Shown here piece after piece: positions 27,801-39,800 of a DNA stretch of 64,000 nucleotides; the stretch's first letter is position 1, and each line of letters starts with the position of its first letter. A model generated the notes under the pieces. The model was not told the DNA's origin. It did no database searches and saw only the letters and a list, made by a program, of their open reading frames with translations. Both the position numbers and the translations under genes were made by a program. Source of the DNA: Apostichopus japonicus (Eukaryota > Echinodermata > Holothuroidea > Aspidochirotida > Stichopodidae); contig NC_092568.1 in the NCBI RefSeq assembly GCF_037975245.1, positions 2,108,001-2,172,000 of the forward strand, in the 5' to 3' direction.

Positions 27801-30800
27801 ATGAACAAAATATTGATTCATGGCTGGAAATAAAACTAAAGTTATAGGTACAAGGTGAAGTTACTTTATACTGGTGGATTGCTATTTAACAGACATAACA
27901 ACCCATTTCATTCATTGAGGAAATTGACGATTTTGTTGGTTAGATCAAACCTAATAAATATTTTTATTTGAGCTAATTTTCAATTTTATGTTAAAGTTGA
28001 AAAGACTCACAACAGAACTAACTGTGAATGAAGACACATCCTCATCGGTACCGGCCCAGACTTTCCGCTCTCCTTTATGTCGCCAAACACAAGTATCTTC
28101 CACCTTTGTAGTGAAACAATAGAGAACAGTTCATCGTTGATTTATCTCTTTGTTTATTCTTACCCTGATTTTTCAAAATAATGCATACATTATATTCCAA
28201 AACAATTAATTTGAACTTACCTTAATTGACTTTTGTATAAATTAAAAAAAAATTTGCCCTGTCCCTCACAAACATTCTTCTACATATTTAGTACTCTGTT
28301 TAAGCTAAAAGCATGCTGGAATTGATGATAATTTTTATAATAAATTTTAAATCAAGGCAACTTGACACTACCTTACATTATATATTTCCCATTTTTAATT
28401 TTATTTTGGTAAACTTTAAGTTTTCTAAGTATAAGCTAATCTCTTTGGGTACAAATTTATTCACTTTAGATTAGATATGAAATAAGAAAGTACATAGAGA
28501 ATCAAGTTAACAATAACATTAAATCATAAAAAACCAATTTTATAAACTTGTTTGATAATTAACCCCAACTTAGCAGAAAACAATACATAAATAAAATTTG
28601 ATTTTCAAGGTATTAATAATTTCAATATATCATATAACAGCTTTGCTTTTACCATGATAGGGTATGTAAAGTACCAACCTTAAACAGAAATCCAAACCCC
28701 ATCATTAGCTGTACAGGTGGTAGGTAATTTTTCTTCCCTGTGATTCAATAATAAAGATAAGACTTTTGGCCATTCTTGATTTTTCACACACACACATATA
28801 TATACCCAAACAAGAGTTATATGCTCTGTGAATACTTCAAACTGTTTTATTATAGATGTAAAATATGTGGTATTTAATATCCTAAATTGAATAAACATGT
28901 TTCCCCTTCCCACAACATTCAAATTCATAAATAGTACAATGAAGCATATTCAAAGATATGAAGACTTTTAAATTGCAAACACAACCAGCTATGAATGATT
29001 TCAAAACATCCAAAATATACCATATGATTGCACTATTATAAAGTGCAATGACAATGGTTAACATAAGCTCTGGAGAGGTCGAATGTTTGAAGCAGTTTCA
29101 ATCGGAAATTTTATCAAACAACAAATACGAACAAAGAGTTGATTGTTTTTAAAAGACACATCAATTTTTTTTTTGGGACACTGAGCAAAATGATATGAAA
29201 TAAGATAGTTTGTAAATTACTATATAGCTTGCAGTCTGTGTTATATTTCAAGACTAACTAGACCTTGCAAAAAACCTGATTTAAAACTTACATAAAAATC
29301 ATAAAGTCATCCATAATACACATATTTGCCAAGTCCAGTTTATTGGGTGGGTGACCAATACGAGGACTACAAGAGCTCTGGTAACGTAAATGACTACTCT
29401 AAAAAAGGGAGGGACTAGATTATCTTACCTCTAATCATAAAACTACCAGTGGATAGGTATTCCCCTGTTGGAGCAGTTTTAGAAACCTACAAGAAAAATA
29501 AATCAACGGTCAATAAGAGAAGGATTCTCTCAATTTGATGGGATCCAGACTTTAGTTTCTATGAAACCATCATCATTTTCCGACTTTTCTTTACAAACAC
29601 ATCCACTCACAAGACACCGAATTTGCATCTTGTTGTTAAATTCAGGGGTGGATCCAGGGCGTTGAGATTGAGGGGATGTCGCTGTTGGGTTGTTGAAGTG
29701 GACTCCCACGAAGGGCTTCGTTTTAGTGGTCATCTTGGAGAAATTTACATTTTTGACTTTAAAATTGAGGCAATTCAGAGGTGTATTTTACACTATAAAT
29801 TAAGTCTATAATTATGTCTAAATGTACTATATTGCTAATGACTAATCACGCTCTGTTATTTAAAGGCACTGACTTCACATCATACTCATTTATTTGCCAA
29901 TATTAACTATACAATCAGCCAACAGGGACTTACTACACATCACAATGTGTCTTTTACAAACTGCATCAGGTTTTGTTTTTTTCTAATACCAGATGAGTAT
30001 TCATCCCCCAGGTACTTGTTATCACCTATTTCTCCCATGAGACACTAAAGCAAACCCACCATACGTAATCCCATTACCCGGTATTAGTAACTTACCTGAT
30101 CTGCATTCACCCACCAGGTACTTCCTATCACCTATTTCTCCCATGAAACACTAAAGCAAACCCAACATATGTAATCCCATTACCCAGTATTAGTAGCTTA
30201 CCTGATCTGCATTCACCCACCAGGTACTTGTTATCACCTATTTCTCCCATGAGACACTAAAGCAAACCCACCATATGTAATCCCATTACCCGGTATTAGT
30301 AACTTACCTGATCTGCATTCACCCACCAGGTACTTCCTATCACCTATTTCTCCCATGAAACACTAAAGCAAACCCAACATATGTAATCCCATTACCCAGT
30401 ATTAGTAGCTTACCTGATCTGCATTCACCCACCAGGCACTTTTTATCACCTATTTCTCCCATGATATGCTACACAAACCCACCATATGTAATCCCATTAC
30501 CCGGTATAAGTAACTTACCTGATCCACATTCACCTACCAGGCACTTGTTATTTCTCCCATGAAACACTAAAGGTAACCCACCATATGTAATCCCATTACC
30601 CGGTATAAGTAACTTAGCTGATCTGCATTCACCCACCAGGTACTTGTTATCACCTATTTTTCCCATGAAACACTAAAGCAAACCCAACATATGTAATCCC
30701 ATTACCCAGTATTAGTAGCTTACCTGATCTGCATTCACCCACCAGGCACTTTTTATCACCTATTTCTCCCATGATATGCTACACAAACCCACCATATGTA

Positions 30801-33800
30801 ATCCCATTACCCGGTATAAGTAACTTACCTGATCCACATTCACCTACCAGGCACTTGTTATTTCTCCCATGAAACACTAAAGGTAACCCACCATATGTAA
30901 TCCCATTACCCGGTATTAGTAACTTAGCTGATCTGCATTCACCCACCAGGTACTTGTTATCACCTATTTCTCCCATGAAACACTAAAGCAAACCCACCAT
31001 ATGTAATCCCATTAGCCAGTATAAGTAGCTTACCTGATCTGCATTCACCCACCAGGTACTTGTTATCACCTATTTCTCTCACGAAACACTAAAGCAAACC
31101 CACCATATGTAATCCCATTACCCAGTATTAGTAGCTTACCTGATCTGCATTCATCCACCAGGCACTTGTTATCACCTATTTCTCCCATGAAACACTAAAG
31201 CAAACCCACCGTATGTAATCCCATTACCCAGTATTAGTAGCTTACCTGATCTGCATTCACCCACCAGGCACTTGTTATCACCTCTTTCTCCCATGAAACA
31301 CTAAAGCAAACGCACCGTATGTAATCCCATTACCCAGTATTAGTAGCTTACCTGATCTGCATTCACCCACCAGGCACTTGTTATAACTTTGGCCTCCCAA
31401 GCAACACTAAAACAGACGGCCATAGCACCAGCTTCATTCAGTGTTTTTGGAGGGATGGGTCCACCTAAAAAGAGGTCAATAAACTTGGCACATGATTCAA
31501 GCTGACACTCTTGTGCAGTAACCTGTTTTGTTGTTTCTAAGTTTTGCACAAATTTGACAAAACTATATCTAAAATATAAAATCACTTGAATATATAAAAA
31601 TAGATAAATTGAACGTTTTGACTCTCATAAATATAAAGAAATAAACAGTTAATAAATAATACTTGGCCTCACCTGTATGATTTTTAATGATCACACTACT
31701 GGCTCCGTGGAGGTCGGCATGAACATAAATGTCTCCTATTAAAAAAGACCAAAAGAAACAACATTGAATGTCGTTCCTTACACTAAAATATAATATTTTC
31801 TGGTGATGTCTTCCTTCTGATTTGCCTCTTGAAAGTTAATGTATTACAATTCTTCCTTTTTACCATGTGATAATAATTCCTGCCATTTATGAAAATAAAA
31901 GTTTGTCAAAAAATAAACAACTTCTTTGCTGCGATAAATAATTAGATATTATTATGATTATGATGATTATACAGAATATCGTTATTATTGTTATTTTTAT
32001 TTTGCACCTAAAAGATATCTTTTATAAATTCTTACCTTGTAGAGATGTGTAAGACTTATGTTTAAATGTTTGATTAAATTTGTTATTCATTAGTCTGTTT
32101 CCATGGCGCCCTGACATCTGACTAGAAATATATATATGTTATACTCTACACTCACCTGGCCTCAGATATCTCTTGTAGACAATTTCATTCTGTTGTTTGT
32201 CCCGACCAGCGATTACCAGGAAATTCTCTGAGCTAATAAACCAGAAAAATTTCTCAAACCTGTTGCGGAGAAAATAAAACCAAAGGAAATGTCAAAATGA
32301 AGAAGATAATGTCAAACTAATAATGAAACATATGGTTATTAGATCAATTAAGTCGATATGGTTAACTATGGTTTACTATACTTGAACATGTCACACCAAT
32401 AAAGATGCACAAAAAAGGCACATTTATAAATATTTACCAGTAAGTTTTTCTTGTTTTGTTGATACTGGTCACTATGGCAACATCTTTCAGAGCTTGTTTT
32501 GTCTTCTTCTCAGCTGACTTGATAGCCTAATGAGAAATCAACAAACCATACTTGTCAAAGTTTTTAGCGTAATGATTTGTAAATTTATATCGCAATGGTA
32601 CAAACTTGAAAGGAGCATTGAAGAGGAATGCATGACATCAACCCGAAATCAAAAACACAAAAACTTCTACCAAATTTGTAGTACGTTGGTGCAATGGAAA
32701 CTATTTTTACCATCTTTTATTACATCACACCACAAATTCACAATTATCACTGAAATTTGTGATGGGTACTTTATGCTGACAATCTTCTCATAAGCAGGCG
32801 CGGCGGAACGGAAAAATTATTGGGGGCTAATGTGTGGAGACTATCTAAGCAGAGCGCCACCATCGGTTGGCGCGGAGAGTACAAGAAAATTTTGGGTTTT
32901 TTCAAACCCCCAGATGGCCGGAAACGGCACTTCCCGAGTGTTTTATGCTGCGAATACCTAGCCCTAGAATATGGGTCTCAAGCCTGCAATTTCTCAGATT
33001 GCACGTAAAAGCCTGTAAAAACATTGTAATTTGTATATTCGATGGTGTTTTAAGAGAGTACTGCTATTACTCGTAGAGTACTCGCAAAGACGTTTTTGAG
33101 TGTAGTAAGGGCAGTGGCGGAGCTAGGGGTATTGGTCAGGGGGGGCCAAGAATAGTCTGTAGGGGCGCTTTCGACACTATCTAAGCAGAGCGCCACCACA
33201 GGTTCGCGCGGAGCGGCCAGAAAATTTTTGAGTTAAGACTCTCCCTAGATTGCAGGAAATCACCCTTCCCGGGCCTTACTAATTTGCAGATAAACGGAGA
33301 ATAAATAGGTGTCGTCGCCATTTTGTCGGAAAATTACACCAACAGAATATGACAAATGTCAATAGGCATATGAGAGCGCAATAAAATAGTCAATAATCGC
33401 GAATAAGTAAAAAGTAGTGAAAAGCTGAAAAGGGCGCCAGCAGTCCATTTGAGTCCGTCAGGGGGGGGGGGGGCATCCGGCCCTGACTGTATATATGGAC
33501 GCTCCGCCACTATGTAAGGGGATGTTGGAGAACTGGCTGAAATGAGGCAAATCATTGGCCTAAGACGAAGTTGTATTACGCTTACCGGTACTCACACTAA
33601 CTTCTTCCACTTTTCACGGGGCGTGAAGACGCGGTTGGGGTGACAATGTGGTCTATAGCCAGGGGACGGGTCGAGGGTCCCCCAGCAATTACTAAAATTA
33701 TTACACCTATATAGTATACGTGTGCATCGGACAGATCGACAAGTATGCATTGAAAAATGGGCAGATGCACGTTTCAGAGCCTTGGTAAATATTGGGGGGG

Positions 33801-36800
33801 CTTATCATGCATTTGCCTCCTCAACTTTTTCATTGGGGGGGCTGAGCCCCCCAAGCCCCCCCGGTTCCGCCGCCACTGCTCATAAGCTCTCATTCCCTTC
33901 CATAGTTGTGTTTTTTCCCTCTTTTGTTATATAAAACAGCACAACACAACATCTCCTTTCCTACCACTTTGAATAACATGAATATGCATGAGTTAGGAGT
34001 AAATATTATTATCACAGGTAGGCATACATTCAAGGGTACATCCACAGAATGACAAAAGAACATATATCAGTCTCATATCTTCAAAAATAAAATAATTTTC
34101 TTTGGATATTTCTCAGCGAATATGTGGATAATTGGGTTGAACTGTATTTGCTACTGTAAGGCTAAAACTGAGCAGGAAAAACAACAAACAATTAAGTTTG
34201 ATTTTCATTTCACTACTCATGATTTGATGCATAGGCAAAACAACGATTGAAGAAACAAGAATAGGTCAAAGTTCAGACCTTAGTGGCAGCATCCTTTGTC
34301 TTTTGTTCCTTCTTCCTGGAGTGCTTTTTCATGTCAAAATATCTGGCAAAGGCACACAAAAAAATGTAAGAAAAAATATTTTGGGTAAAAATAATCTGGT
34401 TAACGAATAAAGCTTGCTGTGGGACATAAAAGGACCTGCAATTTATACAAAATGTTTTAACATTGATGTAGTCTCTATACATTACTGATGCAAAAGACAT
34501 TTCTCTGAAATAGCATATTTCACCACAATTTTCCACAATTAGAAAAGGAGATCAGGTATGCCACATTTGGAACCAAAAGTATTCATATGAATTACTGTAT
34601 AAATGTGACAATCCCTGTGCTTACAAAACTTGCGGAAAAAATGTCAGACAAATTAAACTAATAAATATATGAATCAATCAATCAATAAAATAAATCAATA
34701 AAGAAATGGAAAACTAGCTGGGAAATTAGAAACTTGAACAAAGTTTGACTAGAATGGGATTCACACTAGAGACCTCAGAATTAAGAAAGCTTTCTCTACA
34801 GTGGACAGGACTGCATGTCCTGAGATCACTGGATCGATTCAAATTCTAGCCCAAAATTCGTAGCTCTGTTTTTGAAAACAACAAAAATGAAGGTGCATAA
34901 ATGGTAAAAGAAAGGAGATTAAAATCCCATTATTCCCAAATTCAATGTGATACAGGACAAGAAAATGAAAAAGACAACTCACTTCCTGGCATTAGCATAA
35001 GCAGACAGCCCAAGATCAATGTCAATCATGATTGGTTTATCTTTCACCGCTGAGTCATTTGGATCACTCTCCTCCACATCAACTCCAGAATATGGATTCC
35101 TGTAGGAATGGGGAAAAAATTTAATATTATTTTTTATTGCAGCATATTCGTTTTCAGGTGTTGTTCTTCAATTCTTTTTTGACCAACCAAATCCTTAAAC
35201 TTAGGCAGGCAGTAGGCTCAAGTGGTTCAAACTTACACAAACTTCTTGATTCATAGAATTACTTTCATTACAGACTGTTTAATCCAAATCCTAGCGAATT
35301 TGAGACTAACATGTTTGTCGACATAATCACTGATTAACAAAACAGATTAAGTGGTTAACAATTGCACAAATTGAACAACTGGTTTGGAAATCAGAATCAT
35401 CTGAAAATTGACATATTTTTCTGTGTCATAGAAACACAAAATTAATCATCACTTGAATGATATTCAAATAAATAATGCAGTTTTCTATGCAACTCACTGT
35501 AACATAAGGGTCATGTGGTTCATCTCAAGCTTCAACGATTTAACCGCCTTAGCAACCAAATCTCCTTGCTTCTGCGCATCTTTGATAATCTCATCGATTT
35601 CCTTCCAATCGATCTGATTGGCTATTGCACTACGGACCACCCGTATTGCTTCATCAACCTGGAAGACAAAAAGTAACAGAAGGAAATTTCATAACTTCTT
35701 GAAATTTAAAAGGAAAGTAAAGGTTACCGTATTCTCAGAACAAGTGCCCACTCCATTCTCTCTTAGGGAAATTTTTTAACTTGATCAACATTACTTGCTT
35801 GAGTACATAGTTTAATTTAGGCTACATGGGATGAATTCTAAGAAATCTTGGAGAACAATAGGTCAGACAAGAGGGTGTGTTTCTATGATTAAAGGTTGGT
35901 GTGTCCAAGGACTCAGTTTCTTCTCACTTTCAATGATTGTAGAAACCATAATTACGACTAGCAATGGATTAACTTCTGATGTCTGATGTGAGGTCTGATG
36001 TGAGGTCAGATGAGAGGTCTGATGTTAGGTCTGATGAGTGGTCTGATATAAGGTCTGATAAGAGGTCTGATGAGGTCTGATGTGGGGTCTGATGAGAAGT
36101 CTGATGTGAGGTCTGATGAGAGGTCTGATGAGTGGTCTGATGAGAGGTCTGATGAGAGGTCTGATGAGAGGTCTGATGTGAGGTCTGATGTGAGGTCTGA
36201 TAAGAGGTCTGATGAGGCCTGATGTGGGGTCTGATGAGAGGTCTGATGAGTGGTCTGATGAGAAGTCTGATGTGAGGTCTGATGAGAGGTCTGATGATTG
36301 GTCTGATGAGAGGTCTGATGAGAAGTCTGATGAGTGGTCTGATGAGAGGTCTGACTAGCAGTCTGATGGGAGTCTCATGGGGTCTGATGAGAGGTCTGAT
36401 GAGTGGTCTGATGATTGGTCTGATGAGAGGTCTGATGATTGGTCTGATGAGAGGTCTGATGAGTGGTCTGATAAGAGGTCTGACTAGAGGTCTGACTAGC
36501 GGTCTGATGGGAGTCTCATGGGGTCTGATGAGAGGTCTGATGAGAGGTCTGATGAGAGGTCTGATGAGAGGTCTGATGTGAGGTCTGATGGGAAGTCTGC
36601 TTAGATGAGAGGTCTGATGAGAGGTGTGATGTGTAGTCTGATGTGAGGTCTGATGAGAGGGCTCATGAGAAGTGACCACTGTTTGACTGCATAGCATATT
36701 TATGATAATTCAGATGATCTTTATTAAAGCCAACATTATAACTATAAATACCACTCATTTATGTTTAGCTTAAATCTCACCAGTGGAAGATTCATTTCAA

Positions 36801-39800
36801 TGAGCTCCCCTTTCAAATGGTCTGCAGTCTACAAAAGAAGAGAGTTAAAGTAATTAAAGTGAATGTTTCGAAGAATGATGTCTATACTTACTCTTCATGT
36901 ATGGTTTTTAGTAGTATAATGTGAATACTTACTCTTCATGTATGTCATTTAGTAGTATAAGATTCATACTTACTCTTCACATATATCATTTAGTAGTATA
37001 AGATTCATACTTACCTCTTCATGTATGTCATTTAGTAGTATAAGATCCATACTTACTCTTTATTTATGTCATTAATAGTATACAAATAATAAATGGTTAT
37101 GAATGCAATAGTGCAAATATTTCATGAGTTGAAAGATGGAATGTTCCATTCAAGGAGGCGCAGCCGAGTTGAATGGAACAAATTACATCTTTCAACAAAT
37201 GAAATATTTGCACTATTGCACGAATGGAAACCATTCATTATTTGTTTTATACAACACCTTTGGATGTAAAATGCACTCATGCAACAGACTGTTTTGAACA
37301 AACAGGTTTCTCTGCTCTTTACCATTGAAAAAAGTGCTATCAAAAAAGTATAACACATGGTTCTTTTTCATAGGGTGCAATAGAGCGGATTTTGCACACA
37401 ATCGACGAGCAATTGACCAATCAAATGGCCGGAATATAATTAGGTGTTGTATAATATGAGATCCATACTTTCTCTTCATGTATTTCAATTAGTAGTATAA
37501 GATCAATACTTACTCTTCATGTATGTCATTTAGTAGTATAAGATCCATACTTACCCCTTCATGTATGTCATTTAGTAGTATAAGATCCATACTTACCCCT
37601 TCATGTATGTCATTTAGTAGTATAAGATCCATACTTTCTCTTCATGTATTTCAATTAGTAGTATAAGATCAATACTTACTCTTCATGTATGTCATTTAGT
37701 AGTATAAGATCCATACTTACTCTTCATGTATGTCATTTAGTAGTATAATGTGAATACTTACTCTTCAATAGTATGATGTGTATACTTACTTGAGACTGTT
37801 GAAGTGAGTTGATTCTCCTTTCCTGATCCTTCTTAACATTATCAAGTTTCTTCAGCACATCTTTTTCCTGTCATGAGTGAAAGAGTGAGGTTTGGGTGAA
37901 AAAATAACATCTCCTTTAAGAGTGGCCAGATTGACGAACAAATGCACACACTAATTTCTTTATCCAACAAAATATCACATTCTACAAACAATCATGTTTT
38001 CTAAGCAGTGTGAACAAAGGACAATATCTCTTTCTGTTGACTTATTGATTTATTCAAGAGCATCAGTGATGTCAATGCGTTATGTGGATATGAACAAGGA
38101 ATTTGATAAAACAATGCACTGTCCAGTATTTCTCAACCAAACGATAAAAACAAACACAGAAGGGGTTGTTTTAAATCATTTAATAAAAACATGTCAACAA
38201 CTGCTGTCGAAATGCTGTCACTCTTGGATTCCCCTTAGTGTTCAGGATTTTTACAAAGTTAACGCATAAAATACCTTCCGTGGAGGGTGGAGGGAATAAC
38301 TCTACAGGAAAGGTATTCAAGATCCAACAAGTTATGACAAGTTTTTTCGAATTTCAATTCCAAATCCTTCTCTGTGGAAAATTACAGAATGATTGTCTTA
38401 GGATAATTGCGCATGCAATACTTTCTTTTCTTTACAATAAACACACACAAAAAATGTAAAAACAAAAGCTAAGGTTCACTTTTTGAAAATGTACGAGCAT
38501 TTGTTTACCTGCTGTAAGGCTTTCATGTCCAACTTTTGTCCCTCTTGCTTGGAGAAGAATTCATCCAAACACTGGAACAAACAAACCAAGTACAAAACAG
38601 TAATTATTGCGGTTAGAAAGAGTTTCCAACAGTAGTCAACAGATGAGAGGTTCTCACTGGTAAGACATTCTAAAATTATTAGCTCACATATATGCTGTTG
38701 TGAAATCTATTATTCATTCAAAAGGTCACACTTACTTACATCTTACTTGGTTTATTAAATTGATAATTGGTAGAACAATCCAAGGTGAGTTCGAATAAAT
38801 CTTACCAAGAGTGTCCTTCTGTCTTTGACAAAGTATCTCAAGGCATTATGGGAGATTTGTTGATATTGTCATATATGACAATTTGTCAAATGGATATTGA
38901 AAAACAATGAGTGTCATTAGAACGTAGACCATATTTAAGTATGTACACTTGATAAATGTGCTTAAAAGTGTTTTTAACCAGAAACAACGTTAAGTATTGC
39001 CAGATAATCACAAGTGTTGCAATTATCTCAGTGATCCTAAATTGGGAACTTAATTTGGAAGTCAAAATTGGATGCCAATACTGAAGCAGAAACAAACCAA
39101 AAACCATATTTAAATTTACAGCTATGACACCATACTTGCTTGCGATTCACTTTTGATAAAGCCGACAATGAACTTCAAATGTTTATCTCAAAAGTGTACG
39201 TTGGAACTGAATACAAATTTGAACAGGGTTATTGAGAATGTATTCCACATTTGTATGTCAAACTAACTTTGCTCCTGGATTATAATTAGATGAGACATTC
39301 TCTTCCACCCATTGAATGTAACAAATATGGTATAAAATGATATGTGATGATGTAACAAAGAAAATCTGTATACTACCTCTGTAAAGGAAGGGAACTCCAG
39401 GTAAGGGCCTCCTTCAAATTGTTTGAAGAGAAAAGGATGGAACTCAAAAAATCTAAAAAAATTAATATGAGAAAAAAATAAAATAAATATGTAAGTATGA
39501 CTGCAACAGCAAGGATTATTTCACTTCATAGTTGCCAATCACCTTAATCAGAAATGTTGTTGGTACTATTAACAACTAGCAATTAATATGATCTACTGAG
39601 GAAGTACTTAGCCTTCAAAGCAGTTACTTACAGACAAATTCTACTGCAGCTAGAGAGAGTCATACAACACTGTCAGTTTTATCTCACGTTGGCAACCACT
39701 GCAGAATATGTTCGATCATTATAAAGATTGGTGTACTTTTTAAACAATGTCTCCTTTTTACCACAAGAAGTGTAAACGTAACTTGAAACCTTCAATTTTT

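Follow-up and report, generated by a model that had tools for sequence, protein, structure and literature searches.

The window analysed here, a 64,000-nucleotide stretch of the sea cucumber Apostichopus japonicus (contig NC_092568.1), carries on its minus strand the gene NEMF, recognised both by its NFACT-R domain and by colinearity with human NEMF, and within this gene a 106-bp minisatellite that lies across an exon-intron boundary (Table 1). When the exon from which the repeat derives (31464-31352) is spliced to the exons that follow, its product aligns without gaps to human NEMF 596-661 (E 1.5e-31; the last two residues of the query were entered by hand). Here and at a second array-bearing region of the gene, the protein predicted from splicing runs colinear with human NEMF, and no NEMF retrocopy that would serve as a record of splicing turned up when the spliced exons were searched against the genome by BLAST. 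On the mitochondrial contig, COX1 (Pfam COX1) translates well when AAA is taken as Asn (code 9, common to echinoderms and flatworms), and open frames recognised as nad1 and nad2 precede the rRNA stretch on the cox1 strand, the gene order of echinoids and holothurians.

A 106-bp array begins at an authentic 5' splice site

Tandem Repeats Finder (TRF) called the array at 29999-31384, with a period of 106, 13.2 copies and an additional 310-bp higher-order period. Anchoring on the exon-intron junction resolved 14 junctions, namely the true one at 31352, which forms one end of the array, and 13 downstream, the final one at 29990. The downstream units, mostly 106 bp long with a 7-nt deletion in two of the 13, each repeat the final ~60 nt of the exon and, save in the degenerate last unit, the first ~46 nt of the intron. 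The 310-bp period corresponds to a block of three units that is itself duplicated, junctions 30928-30724 being repeated at 30618-30414.

Descent from the exon is evident from two comparisons. The 60-nt exon part of the unit aligns to the exon with a score of 90, where the best of 1,000 shuffles reached 36, and the BLAST of spliced exons matched 12 of the 13 downstream units to the exon (E 8.8e-14 to 1.8e-6), with no match for the last one. Array DNA searched against the genome gave at least six matches, all within the same array. An origin from the whole exon was considered and rejected: the 46-nt intron part aligns to the first half of the exon with a local score of 12, against a shuffle mean of 14.1, and in global alignment 66 of 1,000 shuffles equal it. 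Since the intron part is no closer to the first half of the exon than shuffled sequence, we take the exon end alone to have been copied.

A first-pass annotation had described an exon end and its 5' splice site amplified about 13 times as a 106-bp minisatellite, with the true junction as first unit and a 310-bp higher-order duplication, and had named similarity to the exon beyond chance as the test; the unit count, the anchoring, the shuffles and the repeated junctions bear all of this out. Its statement that every later unit is related to the exon is borne out by BLAST for all but the last unit, and its view that the array fills the intron has to be reduced to 1,362 of 1,865 intron bases.

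Table 1. Features of NEMF at the two donor arrays, in positions of the window.
Feature	Position	Strand	Evidence
NEMF exon (NFACT-R domain), source of the repeat	31352..31464	-	Pfam NFACT-R_1 9.3e-9; gapless alignment to human NEMF; segment test
Authentic 5' splice site GTAAGC	31346..31351	-	Junction anchoring; colinearity with NEMF
106-bp minisatellite across exon/intron boundary (true junction and 13 downstream units)	29990..31384	-	TRF, anchoring, BLAST
NEMF intron, 1,865 nt, containing the array	29487..31351	-	Acceptor TTTTTCTTGTAG ahead of following exon
Following NEMF exon	29429..29486	-	Human NEMF alignment
NEMF exon ending ...RINSLQQSQ, whose donor starts the second array	37790..37867	-	Spliced neighbours align to human NEMF
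41-bp donor array (GTAAGTAT...GAAGA) from first intron base	36884..37789	-	TRF, sequence

The last 33 bases of the coding exon are homogenised with the array

When the first copy is set against the true junction, 8 of 27 sites differ at -60 to -34 and 0 of 72 at -33 to +39 (Fisher 1.3e-5). Against the ten inner units (means exclude the two deletion-bearing units and the degenerate last one), the divergence of the true junction in three segments was 0.337, 0.039 and 0.067, compared with 0.088, 0.052 and 0.073 in the same segments among the inner units themselves, which differ mutually by 5-9%. The last unit, by comparison, fails to match the true junction at 29 of the 39 sites in the intron part.

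Thus, the last 33 nt of the exon and the start of the intron behave as one more unit of the array: homogenisation takes in these bases and the true donor but not the exon just upstream. On the simplest reading, the donor together with the final 11 codons would be a further member of the array, with the upstream codons held by selection.

Most units retain a donor that pairs with U1 at least as well as the true one

At the 14 junctions, true one included, the donor reads GTAAGC seven times, GTAAGT four times, CTAAGT twice and GTATTA once, at the last unit, such that GTAAGY is kept in 10 of the 13 downstream units and at 11 of 14 junctions counting the true donor. The first-pass annotation had seen GTAAGC in nearly all units, which stands as GTAAGC or GTAAGT in 10 of 13 and fails for the two CTAAGT units and the last one. 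Pairing with the U1 5' end gives the true donor an energy of -11.0 kcal/mol; of the ten intact decoys, six share this value and four reach -12.1. The proposed ladder of donors is therefore present, as ten sites that equal or exceed the true donor in U1 pairing; their function as decoys is putative.

Signals other than the donor are less regular. An acceptor-like TTTGCTTTAG and a branch-like TACTAAT had been assigned to each unit; each occurs nine times among 13, with TACTTAT a further four times. Across the 13 downstream units, the pyrimidine fraction at the acceptor-like sites is 0.47-0.59, compared with 0.76 for the true acceptor. As for the 55-nt pseudo-exons envisaged earlier, this potential length is found in 11 of 13 units, the two deletion-bearing ones giving 48 nt, and all eight 55-nt pseudo-exons tried led to a frameshift and a stop. 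With acceptors so poor in pyrimidines, the pseudo-exon idea is a weak one. Read-through past the true donor would meet a stop after three codons. We also considered whether RNA structure conceals the decoys and rejected this, as the predicted accessibility of the true donor (0.0021) falls within the range of all 14 junctions (0.0004-0.0063).

The array has the anatomy of amphioxus mirages

Tandem repeats spanning exon-intron boundaries have been described in amphioxus under the name of mirages (PMC3087553). Mirages seem to leave regular splicing intact, differ in length from one haplotype to another and may give rise to introns (PMC3087553), and their hosts are Adh3, the globins BflGb6 and BflGb9, troponin C (TnC) and PGBD5 (PMC3087553, PMC3902484), the second paper adding PGBD5 and citing TnC. 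The 106-bp array shares with them a unit that spans the boundary, a true boundary at one end, AG/GT signals kept in many but not all units, and a cluster that is homogenised within itself, with a more divergent unit at its edge; amphioxus units measure 10-160 bp. It differs in its sea cucumber host, in its 14 junctions within one array, in having a second array in the same gene, and in an exchange that reaches 33 nt into coding sequence. Moreover, amphioxus has mirages at both 5' and 3' boundaries, whereas only 5'-boundary cases were recognised here, and splicing and length instability are reported for amphioxus, whereas the NEMF array is known here as sequence. Within the open-licence literature, among the matches listed, previous reports of mirages come from a few amphioxus genes only, and none from outside amphioxus was found, with subscription journals largely uncovered by that search.

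Two other systems invite comparison. Tandem exon duplication with mutually exclusive exons likewise involves local copies of exon sequence, but in NEMF the exon end only is copied, most copies carry stops and the acceptors are poor. Intron gain through tandem duplication of a segment with AGGT has reportedly been recorded in potato and in Drosophila. The corresponding model of Rogers, as cited in PMC3087553, resembles the NEMF array in its duplicated splice signal, which could seed introns; unlike in that model, the extra copies in NEMF all lie inside one intron, and we do not propose that a new intron position has arisen.

A second donor array in NEMF

The first-pass annotation overlooked a second donor array of NEMF (37789-36884), which follows an exon whose splicing to the exons after it gives a gapless alignment to human NEMF 316-410 (E 1e-33). 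It consists of two blocks with ~370 nt of other sequence between them, and the following exon begins at 36828. The 41-bp unit shares 1 nt with the exon and is practically free of exon sequence, so that what this array repeats is where the intron starts and not where the exon ends, and it conforms only loosely to the boundary-spanning definition of mirages. The next NEMF intron holds an array of ~58 copies of a 12-bp unit (GTCTGATGAGAG) at 35981-36670 of the window; it begins ~110 nt after the donor and is thus not a boundary array.

Exon-end arrays recur in other genes

Such arrays are not confined to NEMF, and the earlier treatment of this one as a one-off does not survive: exon-end arrays recur in other genes of the A. 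japonicus genome, and the kind had already been described in amphioxus. We located 47 further arrays by sequence pattern, among the matches listed, on contigs C1-C3 and, for the CAGGTAAGTA search, on C8, C9 and C13 in addition. They were classified by eye, unblinded, from open reading frames and sequence, and short exons may be missed; for L058 and L062/63, one array end each lay outside the sequence examined.

Twelve of the 47 start from the 3' end of an exon-like stretch that carries a donor. The motif AGGTAAG, required three times, retrieved nine listed arrays, six of them of this boundary type (L007, L008/9, L010, L011, L015, L016/30), and CAGGTAAGTA retrieved four, with one boundary array (L031); both sets are biased by the way they were chosen. 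Three arbitrary motifs gave 2/11 (L021/22, L023), 2/15 (L046, L047) and 1/8 new (L061), an array turning up under two of them being counted once. The motif-agnostic total is therefore 5/34, or 4/33 if the FN3 paralog pair L046/L047 is counted once. Across the 11 arrays measured, the unit overlaps the exon by 1 nt to more than 60 nt. The remaining donor-motif arrays (L012, L013, L014, L032/33, L034, L035) were not counted as mirages, and at L049 and L050 open frames enter the array with no donor recognised there. No 3'-boundary (acceptor) mirage was recognised among the arrays examined; a search requiring TTTTTGCAG three times gave 0 matches, as did its control, and so carries no weight.

Homology backs the exon in a USP6NL-like gene, HMG-CoA synthase, a fibrinogen-domain gene, CTL1/SLC44A1, fukutin and the FN3 paralog pair, and a MON1 host has weak support (E 0.0011, below Pfam's cut-off). 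In fukutin, the exon tail and the compared copy are identical at 59/59 bases. For L007, L011, L016/30 and L031 the exon was called from open frames, with no Pfam match for L007, L011, L031 or two candidate frames of L016/30. We take the L031 exon to be VPS39-like, and it had no PDB match at E 1.

Several observations were made alongside this survey. The true donor at position 1154 of L031 is GTAGGT, where the repeat consensus has GTAAGT. On the reverse strand of L030, the exon-like frame before a 49-bp array seems to include one older unit with ACAAG in place of GTAAG, as if the exon had gained a unit or an earlier donor had been lost. In L035 (~1290-1370), the donor of a TTLL6-like exon is followed after ~75 nt by a 94-bp array with CAGGTAAGTA, and a 111-bp array of ~45 copies occupies C2 6565105-6570265 (L027, L028), with open frames through units at both ends examined and no gene context found for it. 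Finally, COX1 pieces containing TGA codons lie at several points of the non-mitochondrial contig C29 (14745-31219); they may be copies of mitochondrial DNA in the nucleus or a fragment of the mitochondrial genome.

Are 5' splice sites preferred locations?

Published gene statistics (19,828 genes; mean transcript 7,737, exon 194 and intron 1,286 bases, as given in PMC10344927) translate into ~100,000 introns, so that ~1-1.5% of randomly placed arrays would cover a donor. The 4/33 observed exceeds a base rate of 1.2-3% (p 0.0006-0.017), and both NEMF arrays with units above 30 bp begin at donors, one of them being the 106-bp array itself. These figures speak against ordinary placement, by which arrays arise anywhere and some happen to cover a 5' splice site. 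They are met, however, by a p of 0.08 at a base rate of 5%, an estimate that takes all arrays to be intronic, and by a density of donor-motif arrays (9 in ~24 Mb listed) about equal to that of reversed-motif arrays (11 in ~32 Mb listed). We gave no weight to row counts (at least 2,226 for AGGTAAG arrays, at least 1,283 for the reversed motif), since the rows are concentrated in a small number of arrays.

We regard ordinary placement as falling somewhat short of an even chance; it concerns location only and is compatible with the explanation of the array's nature that we prefer below. The evidence that 5' splice sites are true hot spots for arrays is suggestive. A broader proposal, to which we attach only tentative belief, is that these sites would be preferred birthplaces of minisatellites, that hundreds of introns would carry donor ladders as strong as the true donor, that position rather than strength would decide among them, and that coding-exon ends would exchange with intron arrays.

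Conservation of the decoys and alternative explanations

The extra donors could be functional and regulate NEMF, either by recruiting U1 small nuclear ribonucleoprotein (snRNP) or by giving poison transcripts that include pseudo-exons or use distal donors. The kept GTAAGY donors, four of them stronger than the true one, are compatible with such a role, as are the stop shortly after read-through, the frameshifts and stops of the pseudo-exons tried, and the presence of two such arrays in NEMF. The acceptor-like sites, pyrimidine-poor and with TTTGCTTTAG kept in 9/13, argue against it, as does the occurrence of similar arrays in unrelated genes. Ranked among all 9-column windows, the donor window of four arrays not chosen by donor motif scored 0.42, 0.54, 1.00 and 0.32, unremarkable in three and with no clear signal of keeping or purging in the four. 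High ranks do occur in several motif-chosen arrays, where the choice of motif itself favours them. We consider a regulatory ladder improbable.

A false expansion or collapse of copies during assembly would be conceivable with a single assembly as basis. The 5-9% mutual divergence of the inner units and the recurrence of similar cases oppose it, as do, if the assembly is that of PMC10344927, high-fidelity (HiFi) reads that, by the mean length stated there (14.7 kb), far exceed the array; an artefact of this kind is very improbable. Least credible of all is that the copies are retained as alternative coding exons used in mutual exclusion: the first downstream unit does stay open in the frame of the exon, but 10 of 13 downstream units contain an in-frame TAG (e.g. 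EK*VIT), the 55-nt exon part shifts the frame, the acceptors are weak, and open copies with usable acceptors were not found.

A proposed model for 5'-splice-site minisatellites

We favour, at a probability of about three in four, the view that the array is a minisatellite of the 5' splice site, of the mirage kind, arising from recurrent tandem duplication across 5' splice sites; use of the first donor would make it tolerable, and the decoys would drift. A short segment over the NEMF exon end and intron start would have been duplicated in tandem, and the copies expanded and homogenised through unequal exchange or slippage. The exon-proximal first donor would still be used, which we propose is why the gene tolerates the array, and the extra copies would remain as intronic passengers. 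Exchange would enter the last 33 coding bases of the exon, and seems to halt where codons would change or a stop would appear. The observed parts of this model are that the units descend from the exon, that they are homogenised across its boundary and that such arrays recur at other exon ends; we infer that the first donor is used, that the decoys are neutral and how the copies recombine. In 12 of 13 scored arrays, and in fukutin besides, one or more decoys equal or exceed the true donor in U1 pairing; strength alone therefore cannot decide which donor is used.

Several points weigh against this view. Among 205 GT sites with at most three mismatches to the true donor in 13 arrays, 99 pair with U1 at least as well as the true donor, and folding leaves the true donor undistinguished, so that position would have to explain the choice. 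The seven motif-chosen arrays rank at 0.90, 0.16, 0.91, 1.00, 1.00, 0.82 and 0.50, and some conservation of decoy donors may exist; in the unbiased set, the 1.00 of L021 rests on fewer than three copies. Over the shared 33 nt, exchange may have run in either direction. Furthermore, the data are the DNA of one assembly.

Repeated finds in a sea cucumber, two of them in NEMF, suggest that such arrays reflect a general process and are no peculiarity of amphioxus. They could mislead gene annotation. They also constitute natural experiments on how the spliceosome settles on the right donor when many are equal, and are a plausible source of exon-end change and of new introns.

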